Shown here: piece after piece, positions 20,838 to 40,172 of the stretch | Numbering within the stretch: the first letter of the stretch is position 1 | Layout: the number at the start of each line of letters is the position of its first letter | Origin: a virus | Virus record (IMG/VR): IMGVR_UViG_3300033291_000004 | Span: 1-40,172 of that record | DNA length: 40,172 bases | Direction: 5' to 3' (one strand) | The notes under the pieces: model-generated | Database searches by the model: none | What the model was told of the DNA's origin: nothing | What the model saw: the letters and a program-made list of their open reading frames with translations, nothing else | Position numbers and translations under genes: made by a program

Positions 20838-21567
20838 AAATATTGATTGTTTCAAAGCAATGAAAAACATTAAAAATAATTCTATAGATATGATCTTGAC
20901 TGACCCGCCATATGCAAAAACAGCGGCAAAATGGGACAAGATATTTAATATAGATTTGTTATGGAAAGAATATAAACGGATAATTAAAAATAATGGGTGT
21001 ATTGCAATATTTGGTATAGAACCATTTTCAACATTAATCAGATATCCAAATTTAAAAAATTATAAATATGATTGGATTTGGATAAAAGATAAAGCAACAA
21101 ATTTTTTAAATTGCAAAAAACAGCCACTAAGAAAAAGTGAAAATATATCTATTTTTTATAAAGAACAAGCTCTATATAAACCACAACTTTTTAAAAATGA
21201 CCCAAAAAATATCCGGCCACCTAAGAAAAGAATGTATAAAAGTGATCTATACGGCGATCATTACAAAGTAGTTAAAAAAACGATACCCGAAGATATGTGT
21301 TACCCAAATAATTTATTGTTCTTTATTAAAGAACAAAGACCATACCATCCGACCCAAAAACCTATTAAGTTACTAGAATATTTAATAAAAACTTATACTG
21401 CAGAAAATAATTTAATTTTAGATACCTTTATGGGTTGCGGCAGTACTGGCGTGGCCGCTAATAATTTAAATAGATGTTTTATAGGCTTTGAAATAGATAG
21501 ACATTTCTTTCAAATAGCTAAAAATCGTATATTTGGATATAATAATAAGAAAGGGGTGATTTTATGA
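20824..21567 (+). CDS. orphan DNA methyltransferase (N6-adenine or N4-cytosine, beta type)
   Basis: ATG 20824 follows GGAGGG inside the end of terL. The catalytic DPPY motif lies at 27-30 (IDMILTDPPYAKTAAKWDKI) and the S-adenosylmethionine-binding FxGxG-like motif near the C-terminus (LDTFMGCGSTGVAANNL, about 198-213), preceded by HPTQKPIKLLEYLIK. This order (catalytic first) is typical of the beta class. No restriction gene adjoins, so it is an orphan enzyme that would methylate phage DNA just before packaging and protect it from host restriction. Its site cannot be read from the sequence. Placement between terL and portal is unusual. Confidence 0.88.
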   Translation: MINIENIDCFKAMKNIKNNSIDMILTDPPYAKTAAKWDKIFNIDLLWKEYKRIIKNNGCIAIFGIEPFSTLIRYPNLKNYKYDWIWIKDKATNFLNCKKQPLRKSENISIFYKEQALYKPQLFKNDPKNIRPPKKRMYKSDLYGDHYKVVKKTIPEDMCYPNNLLFFIKEQRPYHPTQKPIKLLEYLIKTYTAENNLILDTFMGCGSTGVAANNLNRCFIGFEIDRHFFQIAKNRIFGYNNKKGVIL

Positions 21568-22865
21568 ACGGTGAACAATTAACCCTAATTATAAATAAAT
21601 GGGTTGAATCAAAAGAATATAAAAATATGATAGATGGCCTAAATTATTATTGTTCAGAAAATGACATAAAAAAAAGGGAATTTAAATATATTGATGGGCT
21701 TGGAGAATCGAAAAAGGATAGGTATAGAGCAAATAAAAAAATACCTACAAATTTTCTAAGTACATTAATAGATCAAAAAGTAAGTTATTGTTTAAGTAAA
21801 GATGTTATTGTGGATAATTTTAATTTATCATTTGATCTTAATGAGGAAATAGATGTCGTTGCGGAAGAGGCAAGTATAAAAGCTCAAGGCTGGACTTTTT
21901 TTTATCCATCTTCCGAAGGAGAACTAAAGACAAAAGTTGTTGAGTCAGAAAATATAATTCCACTATATGACAATACTATAGAAAAAAAATTGATAGGAAT
22001 AATTAGGTTATATTCAAATGATGATAATAAATTCGCCGAATATTGGGAACCGGAAGGAAAATTTATTTTTATCCTAGAACAGGAAGGATATAAATTTATA
22101 GAAGAAACTTCCCATTTTGATAATGGAAATTGGGGATTGATTCCTTTTGCTCCATTATATAATAATAGACATAAAATGAATGATTTACAAAGAATTAAAA
22201 CTTTGATTGATTGTTATGATCTTACAATATCGGATTTTGCTAATAACTTTATTGATTTTCAAGAATTAATTCTTTTTATCCGAAATTATTCGGAAAATGT
22301 AGCGACAGAGACTGCCGCAATAGAATTAATGGATTGGCTAAAAAAATATAAAATGATATCAGTTAGACAAGATGGGGGAATTGATATTATTAGTAGAGAA
22401 GTGCCATATCAAGCAAGAAGTGAATTTTTAATTATACTAAAGAAACTTATTTACACTTTTGGAAAGGGTGTTGATATTGATGATCTGAAAGGTGCATCAT
22501 TAACAAATGTTGTAATTAAAGCTCATTTCTCTTTACTTGATATGAAAGCCAATAAGTTTATTAAAGAAATAAAAAGATATATTAAAGAATGTTTGAAGAT
22601 CAATAATAAATGGCATGAATTACACAATAAAACACGATCTGATATCAATAAAGTTGATATCACAATAAATAAGACTATCTTAATAAATGAACTAGAGAAT
22701 GCCGAAATAATGTTAAAATTAGATGGTATTGTCTCAAGAAGAACATTATTAAAAAATTGTTTTATGGTCGACGATGTAGAAGCCGAATTAAAAGAACTAG
22801 AGAATGACCAGATGGAATATAATAATAATGATGGTAGTGAGGATTTGATTCCAAATGAAACTTAA
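21564..22865 (+). CDS. portal protein, SPP1 gp6-like
   Basis: A 433-residue portal of the SPP1 gp6 family: an N-terminal helical region with INKWVESKEYKNMIDGLNYY, the wing with YIDGLGESKKDRYRANKKIP and TNFLSTLIDQKVSYCLSKDV, a beta core (EYWEPEGKFIFILEQEG), the stem helices (ESLL-like FANNFIDFQELILF) and an acidic C-terminal tail. It forms the dodecameric gate through which TerL pumps DNA. GAAAGGGGTG precedes ATG 21564, overlapping the methyltransferase gene by 4 bases. Confidence 0.88.
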   Translation: MNGEQLTLIINKWVESKEYKNMIDGLNYYCSENDIKKREFKYIDGLGESKKDRYRANKKIPTNFLSTLIDQKVSYCLSKDVIVDNFNLSFDLNEEIDVVAEEASIKAQGWTFFYPSSEGELKTKVVESENIIPLYDNTIEKKLIGIIRLYSNDDNKFAEYWEPEGKFIFILEQEGYKFIEETSHFDNGNWGLIPFAPLYNNRHKMNDLQRIKTLIDCYDLTISDFANNFIDFQELILFIRNYSENVATETAAIELMDWLKKYKMISVRQDGGIDIISREVPYQARSEFLIILKKLIYTFGKGVDIDDLKGASLTNVVIKAHFSLLDMKANKFIKEIKRYIKECLKINNKWHELHNKTRSDINKVDITINKTILINELENAEIMLKLDGIVSRRTLLKNCFMVDDVEAELKELENDQMEYNNNDGSEDLIPNET

Positions 22866-23490
22866 AGAATTAAGGCAAGTTTTAAATGATCTAATGGGTG
22901 TATTAGATGATAAAAATGTAAAAAAAGAAGTCGGAAAAACTTATAAATACATTAATCAAGAGCTTGCTAAAGATTTGAATAGTTCTGTTAATGCAACGTT
23001 CTCCGGCACTGCAAAACAAATTCAAGTTGATATAATTTTAAATAAAAAGGATAAAAATAAAATTATAAATTCCAAAGTAAAAAGAAAAACTATATTTGAT
23101 AGAATTACAAGAAATGGCAAAAAATTGACTAAAGATGTAAAAAAAATCGGTCTTGAAAATAAACTTAACATAAAAAAAAGATTTAACAGGGAATATAATA
23201 ATACTAAGAGAATTATCCGAACAGATTCGCATCGGATTTTGGAACGGACTAAAAATTTTTGTAATAGTCTAGCAAATAAGGCCGGATTTAAAACAAAGGG
23301 CCGTTGGATATGTTCATTTAGAAATTCAAGAGATGCCCATATTAGGATGCACAATCAAATAAATGACAATGATGGATATTTTTCTATAGATGGATTTAAA
23401 ACAAAATATCCCGGAGGATTTGGAGTTGCCAAGCTCGATATAAATTGTCATTGTAAAGTAAAATATGAAAGGATGAAAAATAATGAGTAA
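22855..23490 (+). CDS. MuF-like minor head protein
   Basis: The C-terminal 60 residues carry the phage head morphogenesis (MuF, SPP1 gp7) signature: GRWICSFRNSRDAHIRMHNQ, a GYFSIDGF turn and YPGGFGVAKLDINCHCKVKY with the paired cysteines near the end. The N-terminal 120 residues are basic and helical. Such proteins sit at the portal vertex and may be packaged with or guide DNA. It overlaps the portal gene by 11 bases. No toxin or effector domain is attached, unlike some MuF polymorphic proteins. Confidence 0.82.
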   Translation: MKLKELRQVLNDLMGVLDDKNVKKEVGKTYKYINQELAKDLNSSVNATFSGTAKQIQVDIILNKKDKNKIINSKVKRKTIFDRITRNGKKLTKDVKKIGLENKLNIKKRFNREYNNTKRIIRTDSHRILERTKNFCNSLANKAGFKTKGRWICSFRNSRDAHIRMHNQINDNDGYFSIDGFKTKYPGGFGVAKLDINCHCKVKYERMKNNE

Positions 23491-23836
23491 ATTCCAAAAT
23501 AGCTTTGAAATCCCAGATAGTATTTTAAAAGATACAAAAAAATTAAATGAATTTTTAGAACAAGCTTATAATTCTTTTTGTGTAAATTATTTTAATCAAA
23601 TTAAAGATTTAATCGGATTTACGCAGGTTATCGGAGAAAAAGAAAAGCCGGCCGAAAATAGAAAAGCCCAGATCGTTATATTTACTGCCGATGATGTAAA
23701 AATTAAAGTAAAAGACGAATTAAAAAAACATGGGGGTAGTTTATCTAAAAGCGAAGATTTACCCAAGTATGTTAAAAATAATATTCCTACTACCATAACA
23801 CAGCTAGAAGACAGTAAAAATAAAGAGGTGAAATAA
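23483..23836 (+). CDS. phage protein of unknown function, 117 aa
   Basis: Overlaps the MuF gene by 8 bases, with AAAGGATG upstream. A small alpha/beta protein (LKDTKKLNEFLEQAYNSFCV, KAQIVIFTADDVKIKVKDEL), acidic and soluble, ending in a Lys/Asp-rich tail. Position between MuF and a large fibre-like protein suggests a minor head component. No family is recognised. Confidence 0.6.
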   Translation: MSKFQNSFEIPDSILKDTKKLNEFLEQAYNSFCVNYFNQIKDLIGFTQVIGEKEKPAENRKAQIVIFTADDVKIKVKDELKKHGGSLSKSEDLPKYVKNNIPTTITQLEDSKNKEVK

Positions 23837-23837
23837 T

Positions 23838-25562
23838 ATGTCATCTTTTGGGAGATATGTTCAAAAAGATTTTACAGATGGAAGCACAGCGGTGCCGTTG
23901 TCGGCCGCAAATATGGACGAGATTTCAAGAGTTTGCGAAATTGCAGACGAAGAACTTGGAAGATCGCAATATTTTAGATTTCGAGATTATAAGCAATATT
24001 ATTATGATCGAAATGTTAAAACAATAGAATATTTCCAAGATCATACTGATTGGACAGGGCTAAGCGGCGGCGAGACTTTGTCTACAGATACAACAAATAA
24101 ATTTATTGGGGAATCCGGCGTTAGATGTACAGAGGACGACGACACAGCCAGTTTTATTGGTATGACTAGAAATATATCATCTATAGATTTAACAGAGTTT
24201 AACGATGGTGGGGCCAGTGGAGACGATGACATTATCGCTTATAGTGTTTATGTGAGTGATGATACAAAATTACAAAGTATCACAGTTAAGCTTGGGGATG
24301 ATAACAGTAATAATTATAGTTATAGTGTTTTTGCTTCAAGTCTTGGAAATGGCTATAATACATTATATGTTAGAAAAAGCGAATTTGCGGTTAATGGAAC
24401 CCCCAGCGGATGGGACGACATAACATGGATAAATTGTCAAAGTTATACAGAAACTAACGGTTCCGGCGGTTATTTTACAGCTTTATTTTTACAGTTAATA
24501 AGAGAAGACCCGGAGCATCCATATTATTCTAACCCATTTCAAATTTACCGGGGATCTATTACAGGTTGGGAAAATATTTTTTCTCAACTATCAGACTTAT
24601 ATCAAATATACAAAGACCCCACAATAAACAGATTAGGCATGGGAAAAGTAAATGAAAAAAATGAATCTGGAAATGAATATGATTTGCATGTTTTTTGTTC
24701 TGTTGTTGAATTTATTGGGAAATTTGAAATGTATTGCAAGGATGCCGGGGAATTAACAAGTATAACCTGGCATGTGGATACTGATAATTATATAGAGGTC
24801 TATTGTCAATTAGATGTTTTCTATCTAAGTATATGGGAAGCCGGGGTTAATACGACTTATTCGGTTGCATTAACTAATTCTCTACTCTATAATGAAAGAG
24901 TAAATTTATATGTTGAAAAGCAAGGCGACTATATAAAAGCTATGTTGAAAAAAGATGGCGAATTAATAAGAGTCTTAGAACATGAGACAACTATTAGCAG
25001 TGATTCAATAGGTTGTGTTTATTTTGGCCACTATTCAACAACCGGCCATAGTTTTATAACTGATTTTAGTTTTTCCAATACTCAAAATGCACAACTAGAA
25101 TCATGGGATAGTGAAAAAGTTATTATTAAAAAAGAAGCTGAAATAAGAAGTTCAACAACTACTTTATCTAACGATAATGAATTATTTGTTTATTTACCGC
25201 CAAATAATATTTTTTCGATTGAGGTCGAATTATTGACAACAGCTTCAAGTACTACGCCAGATATAAAATTAAATTATGACTCCGATGGTGATGTTGAATG
25301 TTTAAATAGAATCTTAATGGGGGCCGAAACTAGCATGACAACGTCTTCAAATACAGGGCTTAGAGGTGGATATACAAGTTCATTAACAACGGCGGTTAAT
25401 TATGGAACATATGCTTCCGGTTCTTGGATTAAAGAAAAATTATTAATTAAAACGTCAAATATTGGCGGTAAAGTCCATTTACAATGGGCCCAAAATGCAT
25501 CAAGCGGAACAACTACAATTAATAAAAACTCAAATATGAAAGTAAAAATGTTAAAAAGCTAA
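23838..25562 (+). CDS. large multi-domain fibre-like virion protein with two beta-sandwich domains
   Basis: A 574-residue protein with no enzyme motif. The N-terminal part resembles the attachment region of head or tail fibres: FTDGSTAVPLSAANMDEI (12-29) is a version of the motif usually written DGTPLNAANLNxIE. Residues 65-222 form a beta-sandwich unit (DWTGLSGG, LTEFNDGGASGDDDIIAYSV, NYSYSVFASSL) closely like the insert of the tail tube protein at 29377. A second concanavalin-like unit spans about 275-425 (IGKFEMYCKD, YIKAMLKKDGELIRVLEHET, SIGCVYFGHY). The rest is beta-rich. It lies between MuF and scaffold, so a head fibre or host-attachment appendage is likely. Confidence 0.75.
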   Translation: MSSFGRYVQKDFTDGSTAVPLSAANMDEISRVCEIADEELGRSQYFRFRDYKQYYYDRNVKTIEYFQDHTDWTGLSGGETLSTDTTNKFIGESGVRCTEDDDTASFIGMTRNISSIDLTEFNDGGASGDDDIIAYSVYVSDDTKLQSITVKLGDDNSNNYSYSVFASSLGNGYNTLYVRKSEFAVNGTPSGWDDITWINCQSYTETNGSGGYFTALFLQLIREDPEHPYYSNPFQIYRGSITGWENIFSQLSDLYQIYKDPTINRLGMGKVNEKNESGNEYDLHVFCSVVEFIGKFEMYCKDAGELTSITWHVDTDNYIEVYCQLDVFYLSIWEAGVNTTYSVALTNSLLYNERVNLYVEKQGDYIKAMLKKDGELIRVLEHETTISSDSIGCVYFGHYSTTGHSFITDFSFSNTQNAQLESWDSEKVIIKKEAEIRSSTTTLSNDNELFVYLPPNNIFSIEVELLTTASSTTPDIKLNYDSDGDVECLNRILMGAETSMTTSSNTGLRGGYTSSLTTAVNYGTYASGSWIKEKLLIKTSNIGGKVHLQWAQNASSGTTTINKNSNMKVKMLKS

Positions 25563-25646
25563 AAAATGATGTATAATATATTTAAATAGTCACTCCTTTA
25601 CTCTTAGCTAGAGTATAAAAAAGCTATAATTAGGAGGTAGAAAAAA
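25563..25646. other. intergenic leader before the scaffold gene
   Basis: An AT-rich gap with ACTCT / AGAGT (about 25600-25615) able to form a short hairpin and a -10-like TATAAT (near 25572) without a recognisable -35. No reading frame of note. Confidence 0.4.
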
Positions 25647-26312
25647 ATGGAATGGTTAAAAAGATTATTAGGAGATAATTATAGTAAGTTGAGTTCTGAA
25701 GTTTTAAGTATTCTTAAGGATTCTTTAGGAGAGTCGGAATATGTACCAAATGACCCAACAAAAATTATTCCTAAAAATGTATTTAATGAAAAACTAGAGA
25801 AGATTAAATTATTAGAAACTCAAATAACACAATATCAAGAACAATTAAAACATACTGGTGACATGGTTACTGGTTCAGAAATGAAAACTAAACTAGAGAC
25901 GCAAAAAGTTGAATTTGAGAATTTAATAAAACAACAAAAGCAAGAATACGAACAACGAATCGAAAATGACAATAAAAAACATCTGATTGAAAGTACTTTA
26001 TCAAGTCAAGGTTGTTTACATCCTGATTTGGTTATGGGAAAAATAAATTTAGATGATGTTATTGTTAAGGACGATAACATCTTAAATGGTGATAAAATAA
26101 TTTTACCATTAAAGGATAATTACAAGGCTTTATTTACTAATAAAGTTACCGGGAATACTCCACCAAGTGGAGGAGGCACAAACCCACCACCACAGCCAAG
26201 CAGTAAAGAAGACTTGATAAAAAAATATAATGAAGCCGAAAAAAATCAAGACTTTTTGACTATGCAAAAAGTACAAAGAGAAATAAAACAAGTTAGTGGT
26301 GATGGCGAATAA
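25647..26312 (+). CDS. scaffolding protein, GP20-like
   Basis: AGGAGG lies 8 bases before ATG 25647. The 221-residue protein has the GP20 minor structural/scaffold layout: a helical start, a long Glu/Lys/Gln coiled coil (LLETQITQYQEQLKHTGDMV and VEFENLIKQQKQEYEQRIEN), a beta segment with VMGKINLDDVIVKDD, a Gly/Pro-rich linker (GNTPPSGGGTNPPPQPSSKE) and a short C-terminal helix that would bind the capsid protein. Scaffolds shape the procapsid and are released before packaging. It is immediately upstream of the capsid gene. Confidence 0.85.
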   Translation: MEWLKRLLGDNYSKLSSEVLSILKDSLGESEYVPNDPTKIIPKNVFNEKLEKIKLLETQITQYQEQLKHTGDMVTGSEMKTKLETQKVEFENLIKQQKQEYEQRIENDNKKHLIESTLSSQGCLHPDLVMGKINLDDVIVKDDNILNGDKIILPLKDNYKALFTNKVTGNTPPSGGGTNPPPQPSSKEDLIKKYNEAEKNQDFLTMQKVQREIKQVSGDGE

Positions 26313-26338
26313 TAAATCTTTAAAGGAGTGATATTATT

Positions 26339-27328
26339 ATGGCTTACACAGACAGTGAAGACCTCAATTATTTAGGTCAAATTTTTATGCTTGGAGCTAG
26401 GCAGACACCATTTATTAATGCTTTAGGAAATCCTATTTCAAATGGTGAATTAAATCCTGCCGTTGCTTCAAGAACAAATTCATTTGAATTTGCTGTCGCT
26501 CAGCCGGTTGACACCGGTGCAGGTTCACAGCCTGCAATTACAGAGGCATCCTCTGTCACTGGCGTTACTGCAAACACAATTACAAGAGGGCAAGATGTTA
26601 ATACTTGTCAAATCTTTCAAAGAAAAGCGGAAGTGTCCTATAAAAAACTTTCTACAACAGGAACTGTTAATAATGCTTTGAGTGGGGTTCACAATATTGA
26701 TGGAGCCCAAGCCGGTATGACTTTTGGTGTTGATGGAAACCCTGTACAATCTGAGTTAGATTTCCAACTTATGACTAATATGCGAGGTATGGCTTCCGAT
26801 CTTAACTATTCATGTATTAATGGAAGTTATCAAGGTGCGGCCAGTGCGGCAACAGCGGCAAAAATGAGAGGCTTAGCAAATGCAATTACAACAAATGCAG
26901 TTGCGGCCGGAACAGTGGCTTTAAAACAGTCTCATGTTAATTCTGTAATTAAAGCAATGGTTGATTCCGGTGCTATTATGCAAAGAATTGTTGCTTTGTG
27001 TAATAGCTTTCAAAGACAGGCTTTAGGGGCATTGTATGAGTTTGTTCCAATGGACAGATTTATTGGAGGTTCTCAAGTCTCTGCATTTTATACCGACTTT
27101 GGCATGATAGACATTATGTATGACCCTAATATGCCAACAGGTAGCATTTTCTTTGTTGAAATGACTGTATGCAGAATTAAAGCATGTCCAATTCAAGGAA
27201 GACTTGTATTAGTAGAAGATAAACCGACAGATGGTGCGTCTTATGCAAAACAAGTATATACCCAGTTGGGACTTGATTATGGCCCAGAAGAATATCATGG
27301 AAAAATTACTGGTCTAACTACTTCTTAA
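26339..27328 (+). CDS. major capsid protein, SU10/DUF5309-like
   Basis: A 329-residue HK97-fold capsid. It fits the SU10-type family: an N-terminal LGQIFMLGARQTPFINAL, an NTCQIFQRKAEVSYKKL strand (E-loop region), long helix ELDFQLMTNMRGMASDLNYS with CINGSY and KMRGLANAIT, and a C-terminal beta part (GMIDIMYDPNMPTGSIFFVE, CRIKACPIQG). About 415 copies would form a T=7 shell for a 40-kb genome. The ribosome site is AAAGGAGTG. It is the most GC-balanced gene of the window, as expected for an abundant protein. Confidence 0.86.
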   Translation: MAYTDSEDLNYLGQIFMLGARQTPFINALGNPISNGELNPAVASRTNSFEFAVAQPVDTGAGSQPAITEASSVTGVTANTITRGQDVNTCQIFQRKAEVSYKKLSTTGTVNNALSGVHNIDGAQAGMTFGVDGNPVQSELDFQLMTNMRGMASDLNYSCINGSYQGAASAATAAKMRGLANAITTNAVAAGTVALKQSHVNSVIKAMVDSGAIMQRIVALCNSFQRQALGALYEFVPMDRFIGGSQVSAFYTDFGMIDIMYDPNMPTGSIFFVEMTVCRIKACPIQGRLVLVEDKPTDGASYAKQVYTQLGLDYGPEEYHGKITGLTTS

Positions 27329-27346
27329 AGTTAACATAAATAAACA

Positions 27347-27364
27347 TGGGGGATTATTCCCCCA
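27347..27364. repeat. 18-bp hairpin element TGGGGGATTATTCCCCCA, copy 2
   Basis: A 7-bp perfect stem with 4-base loop, the reverse complement of the element at 3334-3351. It follows the capsid stop by 19 bases and is followed by ATTTTAATAT, so weak attenuation after the capsid gene is possible. This would reduce expression of downstream genes relative to the capsid. Confidence 0.65.
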
Positions 27365-27389
27365 ATTTTAATATAAAAAAGGTGATAAT

Positions 27390-27617
27390 ATGGATAAAGA
27401 TACTAAAATGTATTTAGACTTAAAATTAGACCCAATGTCTAAAAAAATCGACGAAATTTCTCAAAAATTAGATAATTTCGTAACAAAAGAAAATTGTCAA
27501 TTGATTCAAAAGGCAAACTCAAAAAAAAACTTTATGAATCTGAGTGATAGGCAATTTAATATATTAGTTGGTGCTATATGTTCAATAATTGGGGCAATAT
27601 TCGGCGTAAATATATGA
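27390..27617 (+). CDS. small membrane protein with coiled-coil start, 75 aa
   Basis: ATG 27390 follows AAAAAGGTG. The first 50 residues are a polar coiled coil (PMSKKIDEISQKLDNFVTKE), followed by RQFNILVGAICSIIGAIFGV, a single C-terminal membrane helix. This layout is like XhlA-type membrane-associated lysis proteins, but its place directly after the capsid gene is unusual. No confident family match. Confidence 0.6.
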   Translation: MDKDTKMYLDLKLDPMSKKIDEISQKLDNFVTKENCQLIQKANSKKNFMNLSDRQFNILVGAICSIIGAIFGVNI

Positions 27618-27730
27618 TATAATGGAATTAACACTACGGAACAAATGACGTTTTAATCGTCTTCTAGTGTTGAAAATAAGAGATTGGAAAGAGTTCAATT
27701 CTATTTTCCTTAGATATTATTTGTTCAAAT
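27615..27730 (+). ncRNA. candidate structured RNA with its own extended -10 promoter
   Basis: The extended -10 TGATATAAT (27615-27623) predicts a start near 27630. Paired segments then follow: AACACTA / TAGTGTT (27630-27636, 27665-27671), GACG / CGTC inside it (27647-27650, 27658-27661), and GAAAATA / TATTTTC (27672-27678, 27702-27708) with ATTG / CAAT inside. GAACAAAT (27639-27646), in the first loop, is complementary to ATTTGTTC (27719-27726) beyond both hairpins, which would make a pseudoknot or an alternative fold. GGAGG of the next gene follows at once. It could be a leader that controls the head-fibre gene or a free virion-related RNA. Confidence 0.45.
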
Positions 27731-27757
27731 AAAACAATATTTAAGGAGGTCTAAAAA

Positions 27758-28333
27758 ATGGCTGATAGCTATTTAGAAATTTTGCAACAAAAAGTAAAAA
27801 ATCCTAACTTAAGTAAATATTTCGAGTACATGTTTTCATCAGGTACTCCGGTTAATGCCGTTGCAAGTAAAGGAACTTTGACATTAGATACTCAACCAAC
27901 TGCCGGGGATACTATGACAATTGGTACTAAAGTATATACATTTACAGCAGATGGAACAGCTGCCGCCGATGGAGAAATTGATGTCGGTGCTGATCTTGCG
28001 GATTGTAAAACATTGATTCCGGCCGCAATAAACGGAACCGACGGAATTAATACGGCCCATACCCAAGTAACTGCTGCCGCTTTTGTTGGTGATGATATGG
28101 CAATTACAGCAAGTACAAAAGGAACTGCCGGAGACGATATCGCAACGACTGAGACATTCACAGCCGTAACAAATGTTTTTGATGCCGCTACATTAGGCAC
28201 AACAACTGCCGGAGTAGATGGAACAGTTGGCACTGCTGGACAGATGAAATATGATACAAGTTATTTATATCTTTGTGGTGCTGATAATGCAATTTCAGGG
28301 GCCAATTGGATAAGGATGGGGGCATCGTATTAA
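27758..28333 (+). CDS. head decoration / fibre protein with Ig-like repeat domain
   Basis: AAGGAGG precedes ATG 27758 by 10 bases. After a helical start (LEILQQKVKNPNLSKYFEYM), residues 35-155 are a Thr/Ala/Gly-rich beta domain (LTLDTQPTAGDTMTIGTKVY, VGDDMAITASTKGTAGDDIA) known from many phage virion proteins. The ending (GQMKYDTSYLYLCGADNAIS, NWIRMGASY) matches the C-terminal tip of fibres and decorations. Codon use is markedly more GC-rich and repetitive than in the early genes. Likely an outer capsid ornament or head fibre. Confidence 0.7.
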   Translation: MADSYLEILQQKVKNPNLSKYFEYMFSSGTPVNAVASKGTLTLDTQPTAGDTMTIGTKVYTFTADGTAAADGEIDVGADLADCKTLIPAAINGTDGINTAHTQVTAAAFVGDDMAITASTKGTAGDDIATTETFTAVTNVFDAATLGTTTAGVDGTVGTAGQMKYDTSYLYLCGADNAISGANWIRMGASY

Positions 28334-28686
28334 TGAGTAATTTTCAAACTCAACATATAACTCCTATTACCGTAAACCCAGCAGATCAAGAAACAACTAA
28401 TGCTTATGCAGATGTCGACGGCTCACTGATCGACACTTATGGAAAAAGTATAATTAGTTATACTTGTAAAAATACAGATGGAGCAAATAGCATTGATTGG
28501 AAGGTCTTAGCTTCCAATGATGGCACAACATATATTGAGGCTCAGGCCGAAGCAAGCTTAGCGGCCGCCGCTGTCGGAACATTTACAAGCATTGCATATT
28601 ATAGATATTATAAAGTGCAAGTCAAGGCCACAGTTGCCGACAGTCAAGGAGATGCACAAATTGAAGGGATAAGTAAAGCGGGGTGA
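28333..28686 (+). CDS. small beta-rich virion protein, 117 aa
   Basis: ATG 28333 overlaps the stop of the previous gene (TAATG), with AAGGATGGGG as the ribosome site. The product (TPITVNPADQETTNAYADVD, SIDWKVLASNDGTTYIEAQA, YYRYYKVQVKATVADSQGDA) is a single beta-sandwich, probably a capsid decoration that partners the preceding protein. It contains AASLAAAAV, an alanine patch. No specific family is claimed. Confidence 0.65.
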   Translation: MSNFQTQHITPITVNPADQETTNAYADVDGSLIDTYGKSIISYTCKNTDGANSIDWKVLASNDGTTYIEAQAEASLAAAAVGTFTSIAYYRYYKVQVKATVADSQGDAQIEGISKAG

Positions 28687-28690
28687 TTTT

Positions 28691-29014
28691 ATGGCCGGTT
28701 TTAACAGAATTTTAAATTTTATTGGTGTGTTAGATAATAAAGAGTTTGAATGTATGAATGAAATAGGCCAATTTTGTAAATCCAAAATGGATGAATATGT
28801 ACCAGTCGATACCGGTTATTTAAAATCAAGAAATGACTTTAAAGTTACGAAATTTTTTCATAGAAAATTAACATTAATAAATGATGCACCATATGCCGGT
28901 TATGTAGAAATGGGAACTTATAAAATGCAAGCTCAACCATTTATAAGACCGGCAATGGAAAATCATATATCAGAAATAAATGCAATTGCTAGGAGGGTCT
29001 ACGGTGACATTTGA
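28691..29014 (+). CDS. HK97 gp10-like head-tail completion protein
   Basis: A 107-residue protein with the family's key layout: an N-terminal helix (CMNEIGQFCKSKMDEYVPVD), the VPVDTGYLKSRNDF motif (about 36-49), a strand region (LTLINDAPYAGYVEMGTYKM) and AQPFIRPAMENH (75-86), the conserved P-F-[IL]-x-P-A signature. It completes the neck together with connectors. AGCGGGGTG is the ribosome site before ATG 28691. Confidence 0.85.
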   Translation: MAGFNRILNFIGVLDNKEFECMNEIGQFCKSKMDEYVPVDTGYLKSRNDFKVTKFFHRKLTLINDAPYAGYVEMGTYKMQAQPFIRPAMENHISEINAIARRVYGDI

Positions 29015-29369
29015 TAAGTTAAAACAATATGCGAATGCAAGAATAGACGAATTAATATCTATTGATCTATATTCCAAATTAGCCCCAGAAGATGCAACAT
29101 TCCCATATGTTGTAACAAACTTGTCATCTTCCAGTAATGAGATAAGAAATAGAACTGATTGGATTATAGATATTGATTTTTGGGATAACACAAATAATAG
29201 CTCTATAATAATAGCCCAAGCCGATCTTGTAAAAGCCGGCTTCAATTATTATTGGCAATCTGAGACAGAGGGATTTTATCAAAGTCATATTATATTTGAA
29301 GGAGAAATCCCGACCAGTATTCCCAATATGTCAAGAATCCAACAAAGATATTTATTAAAAGTGAGGTGA
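29004..29369 (+). CDS. tail terminator / tail completion protein
   Basis: GTG 29004 is chosen because AGGAGGG lies 7 bases upstream in the previous gene, with an 11-base overlap. The 121-residue product (KLKQYANARIDELISIDLYS, FPYVVTNLSSSSNEIRNRTD, IIDIDFWDN, SIIIAQADLVKAGF) fits the tail terminator fold of lambda gpU and DUF3168-like proteins: helix, strand-turn-strand, helix. It would cap the tail tube and join it to the head. Family assignment is by layout and gene order. Confidence 0.7.
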   Translation: MTFDKLKQYANARIDELISIDLYSKLAPEDATFPYVVTNLSSSSNEIRNRTDWIIDIDFWDNTNNSSIIIAQADLVKAGFNYYWQSETEGFYQSHIIFEGEIPTSIPNMSRIQQRYLLKVR

Positions 29370-29376
29370 TTTTTTT

Positions 29377-30465
29377 ATGGCTAAAGGTCTAGTAACTCCA
29401 ACGGTTCCGATTGATGATGATATTGCGTTAGGTGAGGCTAAAATATATGGTAATTATGGCCTACCAACAGAAATTGAGCTGGGAAGTACAAGAGGCGGTT
29501 TAAAAGTTGATATTGAAAGAGCCATAAAGGAAATTAAATCCGATGGGCAATATGGCCCCCATAAAGGATTAAGAAGATATGAAAAATTTATGGCCAAACT
29601 AACAATTCAAGCTTTGTGTTTAAAGTATTTTAATAGAAAAATTTTAAGCGATGCCGAAAGCGATACTTTGTTTGAGTCTAAAGGGTGGACAGTTGCAAGT
29701 GGTGGAGTTTACGCCGCCGAAACTTCTATAGTTTTAGAAGGCTCTCAATCAGCAAAAGGAACATTAACAAGTTCCGGGGATGGAATACATGAAGTTTATG
29801 CAAGTGCTAAAGATTTAACGGCCTTTGATAACGGTGAAGCTTCGACAACTGCCGACTATATTGGATTTGCAATTTATGTTACTACTCAAGATTTGGCCGA
29901 TCTTGGAAGTGCTGATCTAAGAATTTCCTTCCATATGGATGCTGAGGACACCGAAACAAATTATTATTATTACGATGTTGCCGCAAGTGCTTTAACGGCA
30001 GACGAATGGACAAGTTTTAAAGTTCTTAAGTCTGCATTTACAGAAGCCGGAACCGGTAATTGGTCAGCGGTAACAGGTGTTAGTATTTCATTAGATGCCG
30101 CACCAGATGCAGAGGTAATTTTTTATATTGATTCTATAGAATTAATACAGGCACAAACACAATCAACTATTGTTCCGGTCAATGGTGGTGGCATGACTTA
30201 CACAGATGAGGGGGACTATAGAAAATTTGTTCCTAATCTTACATTGAATGATAATGAATATTATTCAAATATAACAGTGGTAGGAATGAAACATAGTGGA
30301 AAACCTTTCAAAATAGAGTTGCAAGAATGTTTAAATGATGGAAATATAAGCTTAGCATTTCAAGAGAAAGACGAAGTTGTAAATAGTACACAATTTACGG
30401 CTCACTTTGACTCTAATGCAACAGTTATTCCATTGATAATCAGAGATTGGGACATTGTAGCATAA
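29377..30465 (+). CDS. tail tube protein paralogue 1, with inserted carbohydrate-binding-like domain
   Basis: A 362-residue protein. Residues 1-88 and 268-362 are a tail tube protein closely similar to the shorter paralogue that follows (LGSTRGGLKVDIERAI, YGPHKGLRRYEKF, LNDGNISLAFQEKDEVV). Between them, residues about 89-266 are inserted: a jelly-roll-like domain (GWTVASGGVYAAET, LTAFDNGEASTTADYIGFAI, EVIFYIDSIELI) like one in the fibre-like protein at 23838. The tube would then display this domain on the tail surface, possibly for binding to carbohydrates. A GTGAGGTGAT site precedes ATG 29377. Confidence 0.8.
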   Translation: MAKGLVTPTVPIDDDIALGEAKIYGNYGLPTEIELGSTRGGLKVDIERAIKEIKSDGQYGPHKGLRRYEKFMAKLTIQALCLKYFNRKILSDAESDTLFESKGWTVASGGVYAAETSIVLEGSQSAKGTLTSSGDGIHEVYASAKDLTAFDNGEASTTADYIGFAIYVTTQDLADLGSADLRISFHMDAEDTETNYYYYDVAASALTADEWTSFKVLKSAFTEAGTGNWSAVTGVSISLDAAPDAEVIFYIDSIELIQAQTQSTIVPVNGGGMTYTDEGDYRKFVPNLTLNDNEYYSNITVVGMKHSGKPFKIELQECLNDGNISLAFQEKDEVVNSTQFTAHFDSNATVIPLIIRDWDIVA

Positions 30466-30483: not shown

Positions 30484-31035
30484 ATGGCAAAGGGAGTTTT
30501 TACCCCAGAAATACCAACAGATAATGATATACTTCTTGGCGAGGGCGTATTTTATGCCGATTATGGAGAAGTCGGCGAAGCCGTAATCGGAGCTACAAGA
30601 GGCGGCTCCAAATTAGAAGTTGAGAGAGTTATAAGGGAAATGCCATTTGATGGAGCTTATGGCCCTCATAAGGGATTAAGAAGATATGAAAGATATGCCC
30701 CTAAATTCACTGTTAATTTATTAAAAATGACATATCTTTCATTAAGTTATGGAATGCCATGTGATACCTCCGACGAAGGTAATTACCATGAGTTAGTATT
30801 TAGATTAAATATAGAGGATGCAGATTATTTAACTAATATTGCTTTTGTTGGTAAAAAACATGATGGCAAGCCATGTATTATAATTATTTATAATGCCTTA
30901 AACGATGGAAATATAAGCATGGATTTTAAGGAGAAAGACGAAGTTGTTGGAGAAATGCAGTATACTGGTCATTATGACAATAGTACCCCAACAACTCCAC
31001 CACTAGAAATTAGAGATTATGATGTTGCGGCATAG
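30484..31035 (+). CDS. tail tube protein paralogue 2, 183 aa
   Basis: AAAGGAGGTG precedes ATG 30484. The product contains LGATRGG-like IGATRGGSKLEVERVIREMP, GAYGPHKGLRRYERYAPKFT, MPCDTSDEGNYHELV and LNDGNISMDFKEKDEVVGEM: a major tail tube subunit without insert. The high similarity to the first paralogue at both ends shows a duplication in which one copy gained, or the other lost, the 180-residue domain. The shorter copy is probably the main tube subunit and the longer one a minor decorated ring. Confidence 0.8.
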   Translation: MAKGVFTPEIPTDNDILLGEGVFYADYGEVGEAVIGATRGGSKLEVERVIREMPFDGAYGPHKGLRRYERYAPKFTVNLLKMTYLSLSYGMPCDTSDEGNYHELVFRLNIEDADYLTNIAFVGKKHDGKPCIIIIYNALNDGNISMDFKEKDEVVGEMQYTGHYDNSTPTTPPLEIRDYDVAA

Positions 31036-33073: not shown

Positions 33074-35170
33074 ATGCAAATATTTGAAGTTTTTGGAGAT
33101 TTGATCTTTAGAGATCATAATACCAGAGAACAACTAAATAATTTATCGGGGACGGTTGATAGAGTGCAGGCAGGATTCCAACAGTTCGGGGCTAATATAA
33201 TGAATATCGGTTCAAAAATTAGCGGTTTTGGGAATATGATGTACAATAATGTTACCGTACCGATTGTTAATGTTGTAAAAGATAGTATTATGATGCGATC
33301 AGACCTAACAGAGTCTTTCAATGTTATAGATACTGTTTTCGGAAAATCTTCCGATGAAGTCAAAGACTGGTCTGATAATCTTATGCAAGATTTTGGGATG
33401 ACAAAACTAAGAGCCCTTGACTATGTCGGAAGTATGGGGGCTATGTTAGAAGCTTCGGGCTTAAATGCAAAGCAGACTAAAACTTTTAGTAAATCGCTGG
33501 TGGAATTAACTGGTGATATGTCCTCATTCTATAATTTATCCCATGAAGAAGTTTGGGAAAAAATTAGGGCCGGTATATCTGGCGAGACTGAGCCACTTAA
33601 ATCTTTAGGAATTAATATGAGTGTGGCAAACCTTGAGGCCTATGCCTTGTCAAAGGGAATTAATAAGGCATGGAAGGAAATGTCGCAAGCTGAACAAGTA
33701 AATCTTAGATATAACTATCTAATGGAAAAAACTAAAAAAGTACAGGGTGATTTTTCCAAGACCAGTGATTCATTCGCTAATAGATTGAGATTATTATCTG
33801 GTGAATGGGATAATTTAAAAATGGCTATTGGTGAAAAATTATTACCAGTGGCCGAAAAAGCATTAGACTTTTTCGTAAAATTTAAAGAAAGAATCCAAGA
33901 TATACCGGGGATTGGTAAAATGGCCGCCGGATTGGCAGTTGTGGCGGCAGTGATTGGGCCACTGGCTATATTATTCGGAACCCTTGTGACTGTTATAGGT
34001 GGTTTTATTGCTGTAGTCTCAGCAATAGGGGCCCCAATATTGGCGGCCGTTGCGGCAGTTGGTTTAATATTGCCAGTTTTGGCGGCACTAGAGGCGGCTA
34101 TATTATATGTTTATTATAAAACTGGAATTTTAAGATCGGCATTTGAATTTATAAAGGGAGTAATTGAAGCCGTTGCGGCGGCAATACAAGGAAATGGAGC
34201 ATTAGCCTTTAATATTTTAACTGAAAAATTAGGGGTTAGTGAATCAAAAGCCCTTGCATTTGTAGCCCAAATACGAAGGGCTACAATGGCAGTTCAAAGA
34301 GTAGGTGAAGTTGTAAAGGATGTTGCGAAATTAATTAGTTTAATGTTTGCTGGAAAACAACAGGCTATCATTGATTTACTTGTTAAAAAGTTTGGTATGA
34401 GTAAAAAAGAGGCTGTCGGATTTGCGGCAAAATTAATAAATCTAAAAAATAAGGCTATAGAATTTGCTAATAAGGTAAAATCAGTAGCTATTACAGCAAT
34501 GACAGCCTTTGGCAAGAAAATAACCCAAGTTAGTAAATTTATTTACGAACATAGGGCAGAAATAGCGAAGGCAATAGGAAAAATGGTTGATTTTGCCGGA
34601 AAGGTTATTTCTGCAATGTCCAAAATTTTAAGTGCGGCAAGTAAAGCAAAAACTTTTGCAAGTCGTGTAAAAAGCTATATTGCTTCTGGTATTTCTGGGG
34701 CAATTTCAGTATTAAATAAATTAAATAGGTCTGCATCTTCAGTATTTAGTGCGGTTGCAAGTGCCGCTTATAAGGTAAAAAGTGCGATACAAAGCATTGT
34801 TGGAGCCGTTTCATCGGTAATAAATAAAATAGCTAGTATACATTTTCCAAAGCCTCCAAGCTGGTTCCCGGGATTTGCTAAAGGTGTTACTAATTTTGCC
34901 GGTGGGGTTGCATTAGTTGGAGAAAATGGCCCGGAAATAGTAGAATTACCCGGCGGGAGTAATGTAATCCCAAATCATAAAGTAAAAGACTATGTAAGAG
35001 ATTTACAGCCGTTAAGAATTGACGAGTCGCAAACAGTAACAAAAGGGCCACAATCTATCTATATAGATTTTAAAAATATGATAGTACACCAAAGATCAGA
35101 TGTAGATTATTTATTAAATCAGCTTATGTCAAAGTTAAAATTAAAGGGGGTTAGAATCAAAAATGCTTAG
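33074..35170 (+). CDS. tail tape measure protein
   Basis: A 698-residue protein, the longest after the replication protein. The N-terminal 250 residues match the phage tape measure core (MRSDLTESFNVIDTVFGKSS, MTKLRALDYVGSMGAMLEAS, NLSHEEVWEKIRAGISGETE, SLGINMSVANLEAYALSKG). Hydrophobic membrane-like helices follow (MAAGLAVVAAVIGPLAILFG and GAPILAAVAAVGLILPVLAA), then repeats of small helices, and the ending GVTNFAGGVALVGENGPEIV, ELPGGSNVIPNHKV. Length sets the tail at roughly 100 nm, a siphovirus. GGTCGAGGGGG precedes ATG 33074. Confidence 0.92.
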   Translation: MQIFEVFGDLIFRDHNTREQLNNLSGTVDRVQAGFQQFGANIMNIGSKISGFGNMMYNNVTVPIVNVVKDSIMMRSDLTESFNVIDTVFGKSSDEVKDWSDNLMQDFGMTKLRALDYVGSMGAMLEASGLNAKQTKTFSKSLVELTGDMSSFYNLSHEEVWEKIRAGISGETEPLKSLGINMSVANLEAYALSKGINKAWKEMSQAEQVNLRYNYLMEKTKKVQGDFSKTSDSFANRLRLLSGEWDNLKMAIGEKLLPVAEKALDFFVKFKERIQDIPGIGKMAAGLAVVAAVIGPLAILFGTLVTVIGGFIAVVSAIGAPILAAVAAVGLILPVLAALEAAILYVYYKTGILRSAFEFIKGVIEAVAAAIQGNGALAFNILTEKLGVSESKALAFVAQIRRATMAVQRVGEVVKDVAKLISLMFAGKQQAIIDLLVKKFGMSKKEAVGFAAKLINLKNKAIEFANKVKSVAITAMTAFGKKITQVSKFIYEHRAEIAKAIGKMVDFAGKVISAMSKILSAASKAKTFASRVKSYIASGISGAISVLNKLNRSASSVFSAVASAAYKVKSAIQSIVGAVSSVINKIASIHFPKPPSWFPGFAKGVTNFAGGVALVGENGPEIVELPGGSNVIPNHKVKDYVRDLQPLRIDESQTVTKGPQSIYIDFKNMIVHQRSDVDYLLNQLMSKLKLKGVRIKNA

Positions 35171-36662
35171 AAAATTACTCATTAATAATGGTATTGCATA
35201 TGGTGAGGGCGTTTATGGTTCAGGCCTCTATGGTGGATTTTCAGAAGTTAAAATCGCCGATAATTGGAAATTTCAAAAGTCAATTAATTCCCAAGTTCCA
35301 TTTACATTTACTGTTATAGATAATCCCGATTCAATAGAGATCAAAAAAGGACTTGAGTCAAGATTTTTAGTTGATAATGTTACGAAGTTTGCCGGAATTA
35401 TTTTAAAAATAGTTCCATATGAACCGATGCCCAATTATTTATATTATGACATAACATGTGCCACTTTTGTAAAATTAATAGCTAAAAGGCGATTTGGTGC
35501 AGTTTTTGAAAATAAAACTGCCGGATATATTGTAAATTGGCTGATTGATAATTATTTTTATCAAGAAGGAATAACGGCCGGGACTATTCAAACCGGCCCA
35601 CTTTTTGATAAAGTTGTGTTTAATTATCTGACTGGTGAGGAAGCATTAAATAAATTACAGACGGCCGCACCGGGATATAATTGGCATATTGACGATAATA
35701 AAAGACTACATTTTTATGCTAAGGCAACAAATAAATCAATCTACACAATTGATTCATCATTCCAGCACTCAGGATTTTATTATCATGATACGTTGGAGGA
35801 ATATAGAAATGTCCAAATTATAGAGGGTGGACTTAGAGAAATCGACCTGATCGAAGATTACGAGCCATCACCAAAACCCGACGGAATAGCAAGGGATTTT
35901 GTTGTTAAACATCCCATCGGTCGTGAGCCGACTATTTATATAAACAGTGTAGCAGTTCCGGCCGCTGATGTTGGTGTTAATGGATACAATACAGGTAAAA
36001 AATGGTACTGGTCTTATAACTCAGATAAATTAACACATGATAGTAGCGAAGCCGTATTGACTGATAGTGATAATATCCTTGTAGATTTCTACGGAGTCCT
36101 TCCGGTTAGATTAAAATATGAGGATAATGTTAAGATAAACGAAAGAGCCGGAATAGATGGGAACTCTGGAAAATATGAAGAAATTTATAAAAATGTTGAT
36201 ATAAAATCTAATTCTGCCGCAGTAAAATATGCAAAAGGTTTAGTTGCTAAATATGAAGATCAGGGATATATCGATCTATTTATAGATCATGATCTTGGCG
36301 ATCTGGACGTAAACATGTTAGTAAAAGTTGAAAAGCCTTTATTTGGAATCGACGACTGGTTTTTAGTTGAGTCTATAAGTGCCCAGTGGCAGACTGCCGA
36401 ATTTGTAACTTATAAATTAAAACTTTTATCTGGTGAATTTGTCGGCAATTGGGAAGATTATTTAAAGTCATTATTAACGGTTGAGAATGAAATAAATGCC
36501 GATGATATAGTAGTTCAATATAAGTCATTTTCCGAAATTTGGTTATGGGCTGGAACTTATCAGGCCTCAATTTTTACTCTATTAGCCCCGGATATTGATT
36601 TGGCCCCAAATATTGATTTGGCCCCGGGAACTACTAAATTAAATTATACTTTATATGACTAG
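35163..36662 (+). CDS. tail hub protein (gp27/gp44-like), distal tail
   Basis: A 499-residue protein overlapping the tape measure gene by 8 bases. It combines an N-terminal Gly/Tyr-rich hook (NNGIAYGEGVYGSGLYGGFS), FTVIDNPDSIEIKKGLESRF and FAGIILKIVPYEPM, the typical first domain of baseplate hub proteins, VNWLIDNYFYQEG, and WHIDDNKRLHFYAKA. The C-terminal region has WFLVESISAQWQTAEFVTYK and a duplicated APDIDLAPNIDLAPGT at the end. The hub forms the tail tip ring. No Dit protein is evident upstream. Confidence 0.78.
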   Translation: MLRKLLINNGIAYGEGVYGSGLYGGFSEVKIADNWKFQKSINSQVPFTFTVIDNPDSIEIKKGLESRFLVDNVTKFAGIILKIVPYEPMPNYLYYDITCATFVKLIAKRRFGAVFENKTAGYIVNWLIDNYFYQEGITAGTIQTGPLFDKVVFNYLTGEEALNKLQTAAPGYNWHIDDNKRLHFYAKATNKSIYTIDSSFQHSGFYYHDTLEEYRNVQIIEGGLREIDLIEDYEPSPKPDGIARDFVVKHPIGREPTIYINSVAVPAADVGVNGYNTGKKWYWSYNSDKLTHDSSEAVLTDSDNILVDFYGVLPVRLKYEDNVKINERAGIDGNSGKYEEIYKNVDIKSNSAAVKYAKGLVAKYEDQGYIDLFIDHDLGDLDVNMLVKVEKPLFGIDDWFLVESISAQWQTAEFVTYKLKLLSGEFVGNWEDYLKSLLTVENEINADDIVVQYKSFSEIWLWAGTYQASIFTLLAPDIDLAPNIDLAPGTTKLNYTLYD

Positions 36663-36672
36663 AGGTGATTTT

Positions 36673-37173
36673 ATGAGAATTGAAGAAAAATTAAAATGGC
36701 ATGGTCATATATTAGCGGTAATACGTGACCATGAAACAAAAGAAATTAAAAAAAGAAAAATTATACAAAATCAAATTACAGACTCAGCCCTTGACGAAAT
36801 TATCAAGGGGCTTTATGCTTCTAGCCCAGACATAGAGATAAAAGAAATGGCCTTCGGTGATGGAACGACAGCTCCAAGTGCCAGCGATTCAACATTAGTA
36901 AATGAAACTTATAGAGTTTCAAATACTGAGCTTGGAAGAACTGACACCGGGCAAGTAACAAGTGAGTTTGTGTTAAATTATGTTGAGTATTTGGCCGTTC
37001 AACCTTCCGGGGTAATAAATGAAATTGGCATTTTTGCCGGTACTAGTGCCGAAGTTTGGGGCAGTGGAGCCGGAAAAGATACCGGATTATTAATAGCAAG
37101 AGTGTTATTTCCTTATACATTGCAATCAGGTGAGGAAATATTTTTTCAAAGAATTGATAATATGACAGCTTAA
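36673..37173 (+). CDS. distal tail / baseplate structural protein, 166 aa
   Basis: ATG 36673 is placed by AGAGGTGAT; an upstream in-frame codon lacks a site. The product has the region IEIKEMAFGDGTTAPSASDS, TLVNETYRVS and VINEIGIFAG, a motif set seen in many phage tail-tip proteins (the FGDGTTAPxxSDTxLxNE pattern), then GKDTGLLIARVLFPYTLQSG and an ending in FFQRIDNMTA. It probably sits between the hub and the tail fibre. Confidence 0.75.
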   Translation: MRIEEKLKWHGHILAVIRDHETKEIKKRKIIQNQITDSALDEIIKGLYASSPDIEIKEMAFGDGTTAPSASDSTLVNETYRVSNTELGRTDTGQVTSEFVLNYVEYLAVQPSGVINEIGIFAGTSAEVWGSGAGKDTGLLIARVLFPYTLQSGEEIFFQRIDNMTA

Positions 37174-37187
37174 TAGGAGGTGAGACA

Positions 37188-38171
37188 ATGAGTGTAACAT
37201 ATACAACTAATATGGCATTAGGTAAGCCAACAGTTTTGGATTCTGTTAATGTATGGGGGACAGAATTAAACACAATATTTGATAAATTGGATAAAGCGAT
37301 TATGTCAAATAATTTTGCGGAAAATTCAGCAAGTCATTCAGGCCTTAACTTCTATTATTTGAATGGCCGCTTAATGGATGGAATAACTCTTCGGGAAATT
37401 TCCGGCAATTTTGTAACCCTAACAGATGATACAACAAATTATGTTGAAGTTTCAACCGCTGGAACAGTCTCAGCAAATACAACAAGTTTTACCGCTGGAA
37501 GTATTCCATTATTTACTGTAATTACATCATCTGGCAGTATATCAACTGTAAATGATAAACGATCTTATATGACAGCTTCATATAATTCTTTATTTACATT
37601 AAATAGTAGTGTTGTTGAGACTGATTATAATTTTTTGGTTGGAACCGGAACAAAAAAAGATTGGGCCACTACTTTTGAATATATACAATTATCAGGAAAT
37701 AGCTCTTTAGCATTTACTAAAACCGCCGGGGCCAATAGTGAGTTATATATAACTAATAATGGTTATTACGATACTACAGATTCACGATGGGAATATATTT
37801 CAGAAGATGAAGCAAGCAGAATAATTTTAGAAGATGGAAAAATAAAACTGCAAACTGCTGTTAGTGGCGTCGCAGACGACCCAATTACTTTTATTGATGT
37901 TATGATGATGGATAGTACCAATAATGTTTTTATTAATGGAGCCAGCAAGCCGACGGACTCTGTCGGAGCATTGCATATTAAACAGGGAACCGACCCGACA
38001 AGTTCTTCGGCCGATCAAATATCATTTTTTGCAACGGCCGGAGCTAATAGTACATTAGGGATAAGAACGGAAGAAACTGTTGCCGTTGATGTTGACGAGA
38101 CCCAATTTTCACATAAACACAGAATAAATATAAATGGTACCGAATATTATTTAATGTTAATTTCTGTGTAA
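37188..38171 (+). CDS. tail fibre / receptor-binding protein
   Basis: A 327-residue beta-rich protein. The start (NMALGKPTVLDSVNVWGTEL, NTIFDKLDKAI) is the common tail-fibre attachment motif; the middle is Ser/Thr/Asn-rich with repeated strands (FVTLTDDTTNYVEVSTAGTV, IPLFTVITSSGSIST); the ending FSHKHRININGTEYYLMLIS is the typical trimeric tip of receptor-binding fibres. It is the last virion gene and would determine host range. The ribosome site is AGGAGGTG. Confidence 0.8.
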   Translation: MSVTYTTNMALGKPTVLDSVNVWGTELNTIFDKLDKAIMSNNFAENSASHSGLNFYYLNGRLMDGITLREISGNFVTLTDDTTNYVEVSTAGTVSANTTSFTAGSIPLFTVITSSGSISTVNDKRSYMTASYNSLFTLNSSVVETDYNFLVGTGTKKDWATTFEYIQLSGNSSLAFTKTAGANSELYITNNGYYDTTDSRWEYISEDEASRIILEDGKIKLQTAVSGVADDPITFIDVMMMDSTNNVFINGASKPTDSVGALHIKQGTDPTSSSADQISFFATAGANSTLGIRTEETVAVDVDETQFSHKHRININGTEYYLMLISV

Positions 38172-39875: not shown

Positions 39876-40172
39876 TTATTTTATAGTATCAATATTAAAT
39901 AATTTAAAAACGTTAGTTTCAATATATTGCTGATTTTGCTTTTGTGTTTTCTGCTCAAGTATCCATTTACGCATTTTAAAAAATTCTTGAGTTATTCTTT
40001 TTTTAAATTCTAAAACTTTATCGTTTTCATTTTGCTTAACTCTTAACATCATTATTAAAAATGTTAAATGTTGCTCGTTTAAATAGTAATATTTTGCATT
40101 TATTCCTTTTCTTTGGGACATTTCAAATTCCCCAACTTTTCCCATTTCTTCAAAATCTTTTCTATATTGTTT
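39876..40172 (-). CDS. Rha-family regulatory protein, C-terminal part (continues at base 200 in the circle)
   Basis: Residues 35-132 of the protein that begins at base 200 of the window. They show GINAKYYYLNEQHLTFLIMM, LRVKQNENDKVLEFKKRI and FFKMRKWILEQKTQKQNQQY, nearly the same as the long paralogue up to QQYIET. After that the sequence differs (NVFKLFNIDTIK) and stops, so one paralogue was truncated or the other extended right at this conserved segment. The stop is 43 bases upstream of the long paralogue's start, and both are likely transcribed together. Confidence 0.85.
   Translation of the reverse strand, partial: KQYRKDFEEMGKVGEFEMSQRKGINAKYYYLNEQHLTFLIMMLRVKQNENDKVLEFKKRITQEFFKMRKWILEQKTQKQNQQYIETNVFKLFNIDTIK
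40075..40172. repeat. 98-bp terminal direct repeat, right copy
   Basis: Identical to bases 1-98. See the left copy: the sequence closes into a circle and the repeat should be counted once. Confidence 0.95.

Follow-up and report, generated by a model that had tools for sequence, protein, structure and literature searches.

A carbohydrate-binding-module-like domain common to a tail tube protein and a putative adhesin encoded among the head genes of an uncultivated siphovirus-type phage

Two virion proteins of an uncultivated virus carry copies of the same domain. The DNA that we analyzed (the window, the whole 40,172-base record IMGVR_UViG_3300033291_000004) encodes p574, a putative adhesin or receptor-binding appendage of 574 residues, and a long tail tube protein of 362 residues; by sequence and profile comparison, residues 70-222 (approximately) of the former are homologous to residues 100-260 (approximately) of the latter. 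The gene for p574 lies within the head module of the window, and eight other records encode its homologues at the tail-module end. We conclude, with moderate confidence, that p574 and its small partner p117 represent a tail-adhesin cassette that has been shifted to a place among the head genes, and that the domain inserted in the tube protein would serve as an ancillary glycan-binding decoration.

Gene order in the window is of the siphovirus type (TerL, methyltransferase, portal, minor head protein, p117, p574, scaffold and SU10-type capsid protein, followed by connector-type genes, two tandem tail tube genes, tape measure, p499, p172 and p327). The cassette (p117 at 23483..23836 and p574 at 23838..25562, plus strand) is bounded on the same strand by a minor head protein of the SPP1 gp7/Mu F-like kind to its left (22855..23490; phrog_2468 at E 7e-11, and Pfam Phage_Mu_F at E 2.5e-4, under the curated cut-off) and by the head scaffolding protein to its right (25647..26312; Pfam Phage_scaffold, E 8.6e-22), beyond which lies the major capsid protein (26339..27328; Pfam SU10_MCP, E 4.3e-48). 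The tail genes, also on the plus strand, include the long tube protein (29377..30465; phrog_885 major tail protein, E 2.1e-20), the tape measure protein (33074..35170; phrog_1535, E 8.6e-51), the tail protein p499 with the weakly tail-fibre-like p172 (35163..37173) and p327 (37188..38171). The open reading frames of p574 and of the long tube protein are present where the first-pass annotation had placed both. In tblastn searches the two window proteins had no match among isolated phages, and the tube protein had none among plasmids; no relative turned up in bacterial or archaeal genomes, which were scanned twice. The window also carries a DNA methyltransferase gene between the terminase and portal genes (20731-21567) and, 3' of the capsid gene, a gene for a 126-residue protein (28306-28686) that matches Pfam DUF6385 (E 2e-8).

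Homology and history of the two domain copies

Copy A of the domain occupies p574 residues 61-222 (24018..24503, plus strand; placed by hhalign against the tube insert and by the AF2 model), and copy B occupies tube residues 85-272 (29629..30192, plus strand; placed by its absence from the shorter tube paralogue, by AF2 and by Foldseek). BLASTP of p574 against the tube protein gives E 2e-6 over 96 residues at 32% identity. Smith-Waterman alignment of p574 residues 65-222 with tube residues 89-266 scores 105, as compared with a mean of 37 and a maximum of 75 over 5000 shuffles of the tube segment, and the best score of any other open reading frame in the window is 42 with the p574 domain and 48 with the tube domain. 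The two families were gathered independently from IMG/VR before their profiles were compared; hhalign returned a probability of 93.9 (E 1.6e-7) for small family sets and of 98.8% (E 1.1e-16, score 106) for sets of 15 and 16 members, and the best of 100 column-shuffled controls scored 22.9. Run on the whole record, the tube profile finds, besides its own copy, the copy in p574 (24042-24464, E 4e-10), the p574 profile finds, besides its own, the copy in the tube protein (29677-30123, E 2.4e-9), and neither detects a third copy in the window. The shared domain that the first-pass annotation had read from paired motifs is thus borne out by direct and profile-profile comparison alike, and the motif pairs themselves are present and align as it had claimed.

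Conservation in both families is limited to 19 of 140 aligned positions (a position being counted if it is at least 80% conserved and carries the identical residue in both), and several of the 19 lie in the hydrophobic core. Among these p574/tube pairs are W72/W104, a DLT-x-F motif, Y138-I139/Y167-I168, K180-S181/K218-S219 and W192/W229. Loop residues that are strongly conserved within each family differ between the two, with GDDNSNNY in one and H-x-DAE-x-TETN in the other. The families thus have the predicted fold and the 19 residues in common, but with such different loops the suggestion that the domain gives head and tail the same binding ability is not supported.

The direct identity of the window copies is low (about 24-32%), as might be expected if two acidic, Thr/Ser-rich beta proteins had come to resemble each other by convergence or by composition. 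This explanation is extremely improbable: it is contradicted by both the shuffling and the column-shuffling controls, and chance similarity is ruled out by them. Members of both families also match PHROG 9983 ('tail protein'; matches listed at a threshold of E 0.1), with best values of 3.5e-6 among p574 homologues and 4.5e-8 among tube proteins, although p574 of the window is itself unmatched and the match of the window tube protein is no better than E 0.002. In addition, an intermediate copy in the record L076 fits both family profiles (E 2e-31 and 3e-15).

Copy B is an internal, in-frame insertion in one of the two tandem tube genes. Residues 85-275 (approximately) of the long protein are missing from the adjoining 183-residue paralogue (30484..31035, plus strand; phrog_885, E 1e-35), to which both flanks align at 51% identity. 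All long tube homologues found, on more than 20 contigs, contain the insert, and the short tube gene comes after the long one wherever the contig extends far enough; two records (L073 and L074) have the short gene only, within the stretch examined. The phrog_885 match was obtained for 26 of the 26 tube-family members scanned (best 9.5e-36).

The domain is genuine and mobile among virion proteins, occurring in five contexts: p574 in the head slot, p574 in the tail-end slot, the tube insert, an FN3-type tail protein of about 1100 residues, and a PHP-domain virion protein. The FN3-type carrier (1113-1126 residues) is encoded immediately 3' of the tape measure gene in L012, L025, L027, L028 and L040. 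The last context is an 891-residue virion-type protein (L076:8522-11197), in which the shared domain is flanked by a weakly matched PHP-type, enzyme-like domain and by the ConA-like region known from p574. In the domain tree, tube copies form one side and p574 and FN3 copies the other (support 100/99), and each window copy resembles its counterparts in other phages far more than it does the other window copy, to which it is about 24% identical. From the tree, the two copies are members of old clades; the domain moved between virion proteins in evolution and not recently within the window phage. The first-pass annotation had it moving between proteins of a single phage, a step that this history does not support, and recent duplication within the window phage is ruled out by the tree.

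Predicted fold and the case for glycan binding

AF2 predicts the tube insert as a jelly roll, with pLDDT of about 81-95 over residues 101-260, and models the tube core at low confidence; the p574 copy has pLDDT of 71-95 by 10-residue block, and the order of strands and helices predicted for the two domains corresponds closely. In a Foldseek search of the PDB, the best match to the tube model is the HFTV1 turret protein (E 1.1e-7). Next comes a match of the insert to CBM11 (1v0a; E 2.4e-7, TM 0.68 by target), followed by matches to CBM22, CBM30 and CBM16, with carbohydrate-binding modules (CBMs) predominating among the matches listed, and the core matches phage tail tubes. An independent, weak sequence match links the tube-insert profile to the HFTV1 turret chain 8qpg_TC (E 0.007). 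For p574, multi-domain alignments with low TM scores dominated the fold search against the PDB, which is left out of account for the shared domain; the p574 copy may be termed CBM11-like indirectly, through its homology to the tube insert and its matching predicted secondary structure. Pfam has no match for p574 or the tube insert and no credible match anywhere in either family; because no curated CBM sequence family is matched, we call the domain CBM-like and do not file it as a member of CBM11. A PDB sequence search with a mixed alignment yielded only weak matches to flagellin (E 0.007-0.04); three rows of this alignment match the p574 C-terminal domain and not the shared domain, and it was discarded.

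On these predictions, the shared segment is probably the phage form of a jelly-roll module of the CBM11/galactose-binding type, decorating virion surfaces; the tube insert would probably stand out from the tail shaft along its length and bind glycans in an ancillary role, with low affinity. The lactococcal siphophages of the 936 group offer a precedent, in that they carry CBMs on the tube (MTP-TpeX), the neck (NPS) and the evolved Dit, and two of these domains have been shown to bind host cells (PMC6669499). The window phage resembles them in having related CBM-type modules on several virion proteins, including the tail tube, and in having the module on only part of the tube subunits. It differs in that the tube CBM of the 936 phages is a BppA-like C-terminal extension produced by frameshifting, whereas that of the window is an internal insertion with a fold match of the CBM11/turret type (BppA is absent among the 50 fold matches listed for the tube model); and host-cell binding is established for two 936 domains, whereas the domains of the window are known from sequence and predicted fold. 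Roseophage R4C likewise has a CtCBM11-like domain in a tail protein, its megatron protein (PMC10276861), which is a baseplate protein and not a tube protein.

The domain could instead be a beta-sandwich spacer or stabilizer without a ligand in both proteins, a structural role of the kind argued for some Ig-like phage domains. Such a role would fit the small number of positions conserved in both families, several of which belong to the hydrophobic core, and the tube inserts of close relatives, which are 95-99% identical with no diversification towards new ligands seen. We nonetheless regard it as quite unlikely, given that the tube insert is matched in fold mostly by carbohydrate-binding modules, that the L076 copy stands between an enzyme-like and a ConA-like region, and that CBMs on the tube and neck of 936 phages bind host cells (PMC6669499).

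Gene position and exchangeable tip of p574

The order minor head protein, p117, p574, scaffold is found in five records (the window, L014, L052, L053 and G016, the last with an extra gene of 84 residues), and misassembly is unlikely because the five are separate assemblies. In eight other records (L017, L018/L057, L021/L054, L022/L056, L024/L055, L073, L074 and L075) the p574 homologue is encoded at the tail end, after the tape measure, p499 and p172 genes, in some with a small gene in between; two pairs of these records are near-copies, and one copy (L022/L056) is cut by the contig end. The small gene ahead of the tail-end p574 in L017 is a p117 homologue (L017:4521-4823, 38% identity, E 1.5e-6), as is that of the head slot in G016 (E 1.8e-11). 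The tail-end slot of the head-slot phages is filled by p327. In L042 and L043 the minor head protein directly adjoins the scaffold, and the cassette is absent; a scan with the minor head protein, aimed at close relatives in which the site is empty, found members of the same lineage and no others. A tree of the first 420 residues of p574 does not clearly unite the head-slot proteins in one clade (p-AU 0.04, with long branches), and the count and direction of relocations are therefore not fixed by the tree. Two further observations concern the records themselves. G016 (L031, L079) is broken inside p574, with parts at 10-1683 and 39995-40165, at opposite ends of the record, the arrangement that a circular or circularly permuted genome would give; and in L006 (5437-8658) a 302-residue open reading frame splits the tape measure gene into two matching frames, possibly as an intron or homing endonuclease insertion.

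In the p574 model a helical N-terminus leads into the shared domain, which is followed by two more beta domains, the first of them ConA/LamG-like as read from fold matches and the other C-terminal. Its BFVD matches include many minor tail proteins and one putative receptor-binding protein. Among close relatives it is mainly the C-terminal tip (25083..25562, plus strand) that is exchanged: against L052 and L053, otherwise near-identical phages, DNA identity in 100-nucleotide bins drops from roughly 80-97% to 32-63% at about position 25,083 and recovers at about 25,583 (both flanks being about 80-100% identical), a sharp mosaic replacement, and amino acid identity is 22-37% in the tip and 87-98% before it. 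Of the structural genes in these comparisons p574 diverges most (72-78%), most others being 89-99% and p327 96-99% identical. A conserved N-terminal part with an exchangeable tip resembles receptor-binding proteins, and p574 is on this ground a putative adhesin, its modules being an anchor, the CBM-like domain, the ConA-like domain and the tip. Two tail-end homologues (L073:9830-11563 and L075:6758-8488) show mosaicism of another kind, with near-identical ConA-like regions and a differing N-terminal part and shared domain.

The first-pass annotation's term 'head-module protein' accordingly describes the position of the gene in the window only. That p574 is a head protein is not supported, given its tail-end gene in eight other records, an N-terminal part that is kept between the slots, and a tip in which close relatives mainly differ. 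Across the two slots, residues 1-60 are 20-39% identical and the next two domains 27-48%. Because the N-terminal part is conserved, we infer that p574 most likely uses the same virion attachment site from both gene positions, and that site would probably be the tail tip. In most relatives p574, often accompanied by p117, belongs to the tail-module end, and in the window lineage the pair is found with the minor head protein gene on one side and the scaffold gene on the other.

What counts against a displaced tail cassette is the head-module position itself, which recurs in the five records and is compatible with a head appendage like the HFTV1 turret. The turret protein gp31 (PDB 8QPG) has a galactose-binding-like domain at residues 57-198, for which binding of host glycans from the head has been proposed (PMC12494034), and 50-70% of HFTV1 particles are seen attached by the head (PMC9973310). 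On this model p574 would be a true capsid fibre or turret, head and tail shaft would carry related glycan-binding domains, and the phage could adsorb head-first, as proposed for HFTV1. The match of the tube insert to this turret, both in fold and weakly in sequence, and the presence of p327 in the tail-end slot of the same phages are in its favour. The HFTV1 domain sits on capsid turrets and is fused to a deacetylase-like domain, whereas those of the window are in a tail tube protein and a putative adhesin, and no deacetylase family match was found in p574 or the tube protein, so that the CBM-like fold is all that is shared. Considering the eight tail-end homologues with a conserved N-terminal part, and that no capsid-anchoring feature was found in p574, we take a capsid appendage to be unlikely, if with some real chance of being correct.

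A parallel exists in Gordonia phages. The gene of Sitar gp26 (L083:7669-9558) stands between those of the capsid and the head-to-tail adaptor, and that of Frokostdame gp30 (L084:5159-7558) at the tail end, and the two are 97.9% identical in DNA over 1789 bases, the N-terminal part alone differing; from this comparison, the spike has recently been exchanged between the two gene positions. Ailee is similar to Sitar in sequence and position, and Faith5x5 is similar to Frokostdame. The C-terminal domain of the Gordonia spikes is homologous to the p574 tip (E 1.3e-12), and one Gordonia protein ending in a p574-type tip domain is annotated as a minor tail protein. The spikes share with p574 this tip and the same duality of head-region and tail-end genes; they differ from it in having no match outside the tip and in that the N-terminal anchor is replaced between positions.

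Implications for head and tail assignments

A further possibility is that the window lineage took a tail-adhesin cassette into its head gene block and that its capsid now bears the adhesin, with related glycan-binding domains on head and shaft allowing adsorption in any orientation; we consider this unlikely. Relocation of a tail-adhesin cassette is more likely than head and tail being armed alike. CBM-type domains are already known on the tail tube, neck and Dit (PMC6669499) and on head turrets (PMC12494034), and it is the relocation that is unusual. The shared domain extends the known pattern of CBMs to a module inserted within one member of a tandem pair of tube genes. Less expected is that the most variable structural gene of the lineage, and the one most like a receptor-binding protein, stands inside the head module and at the tail end in relatives. 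Phage genes are routinely labeled as head or tail from gene order. The p574 family, together with the Gordonia parallel, offers a direct test of such labeling, and it also tests whether a tail adhesin can turn into a head appendage.
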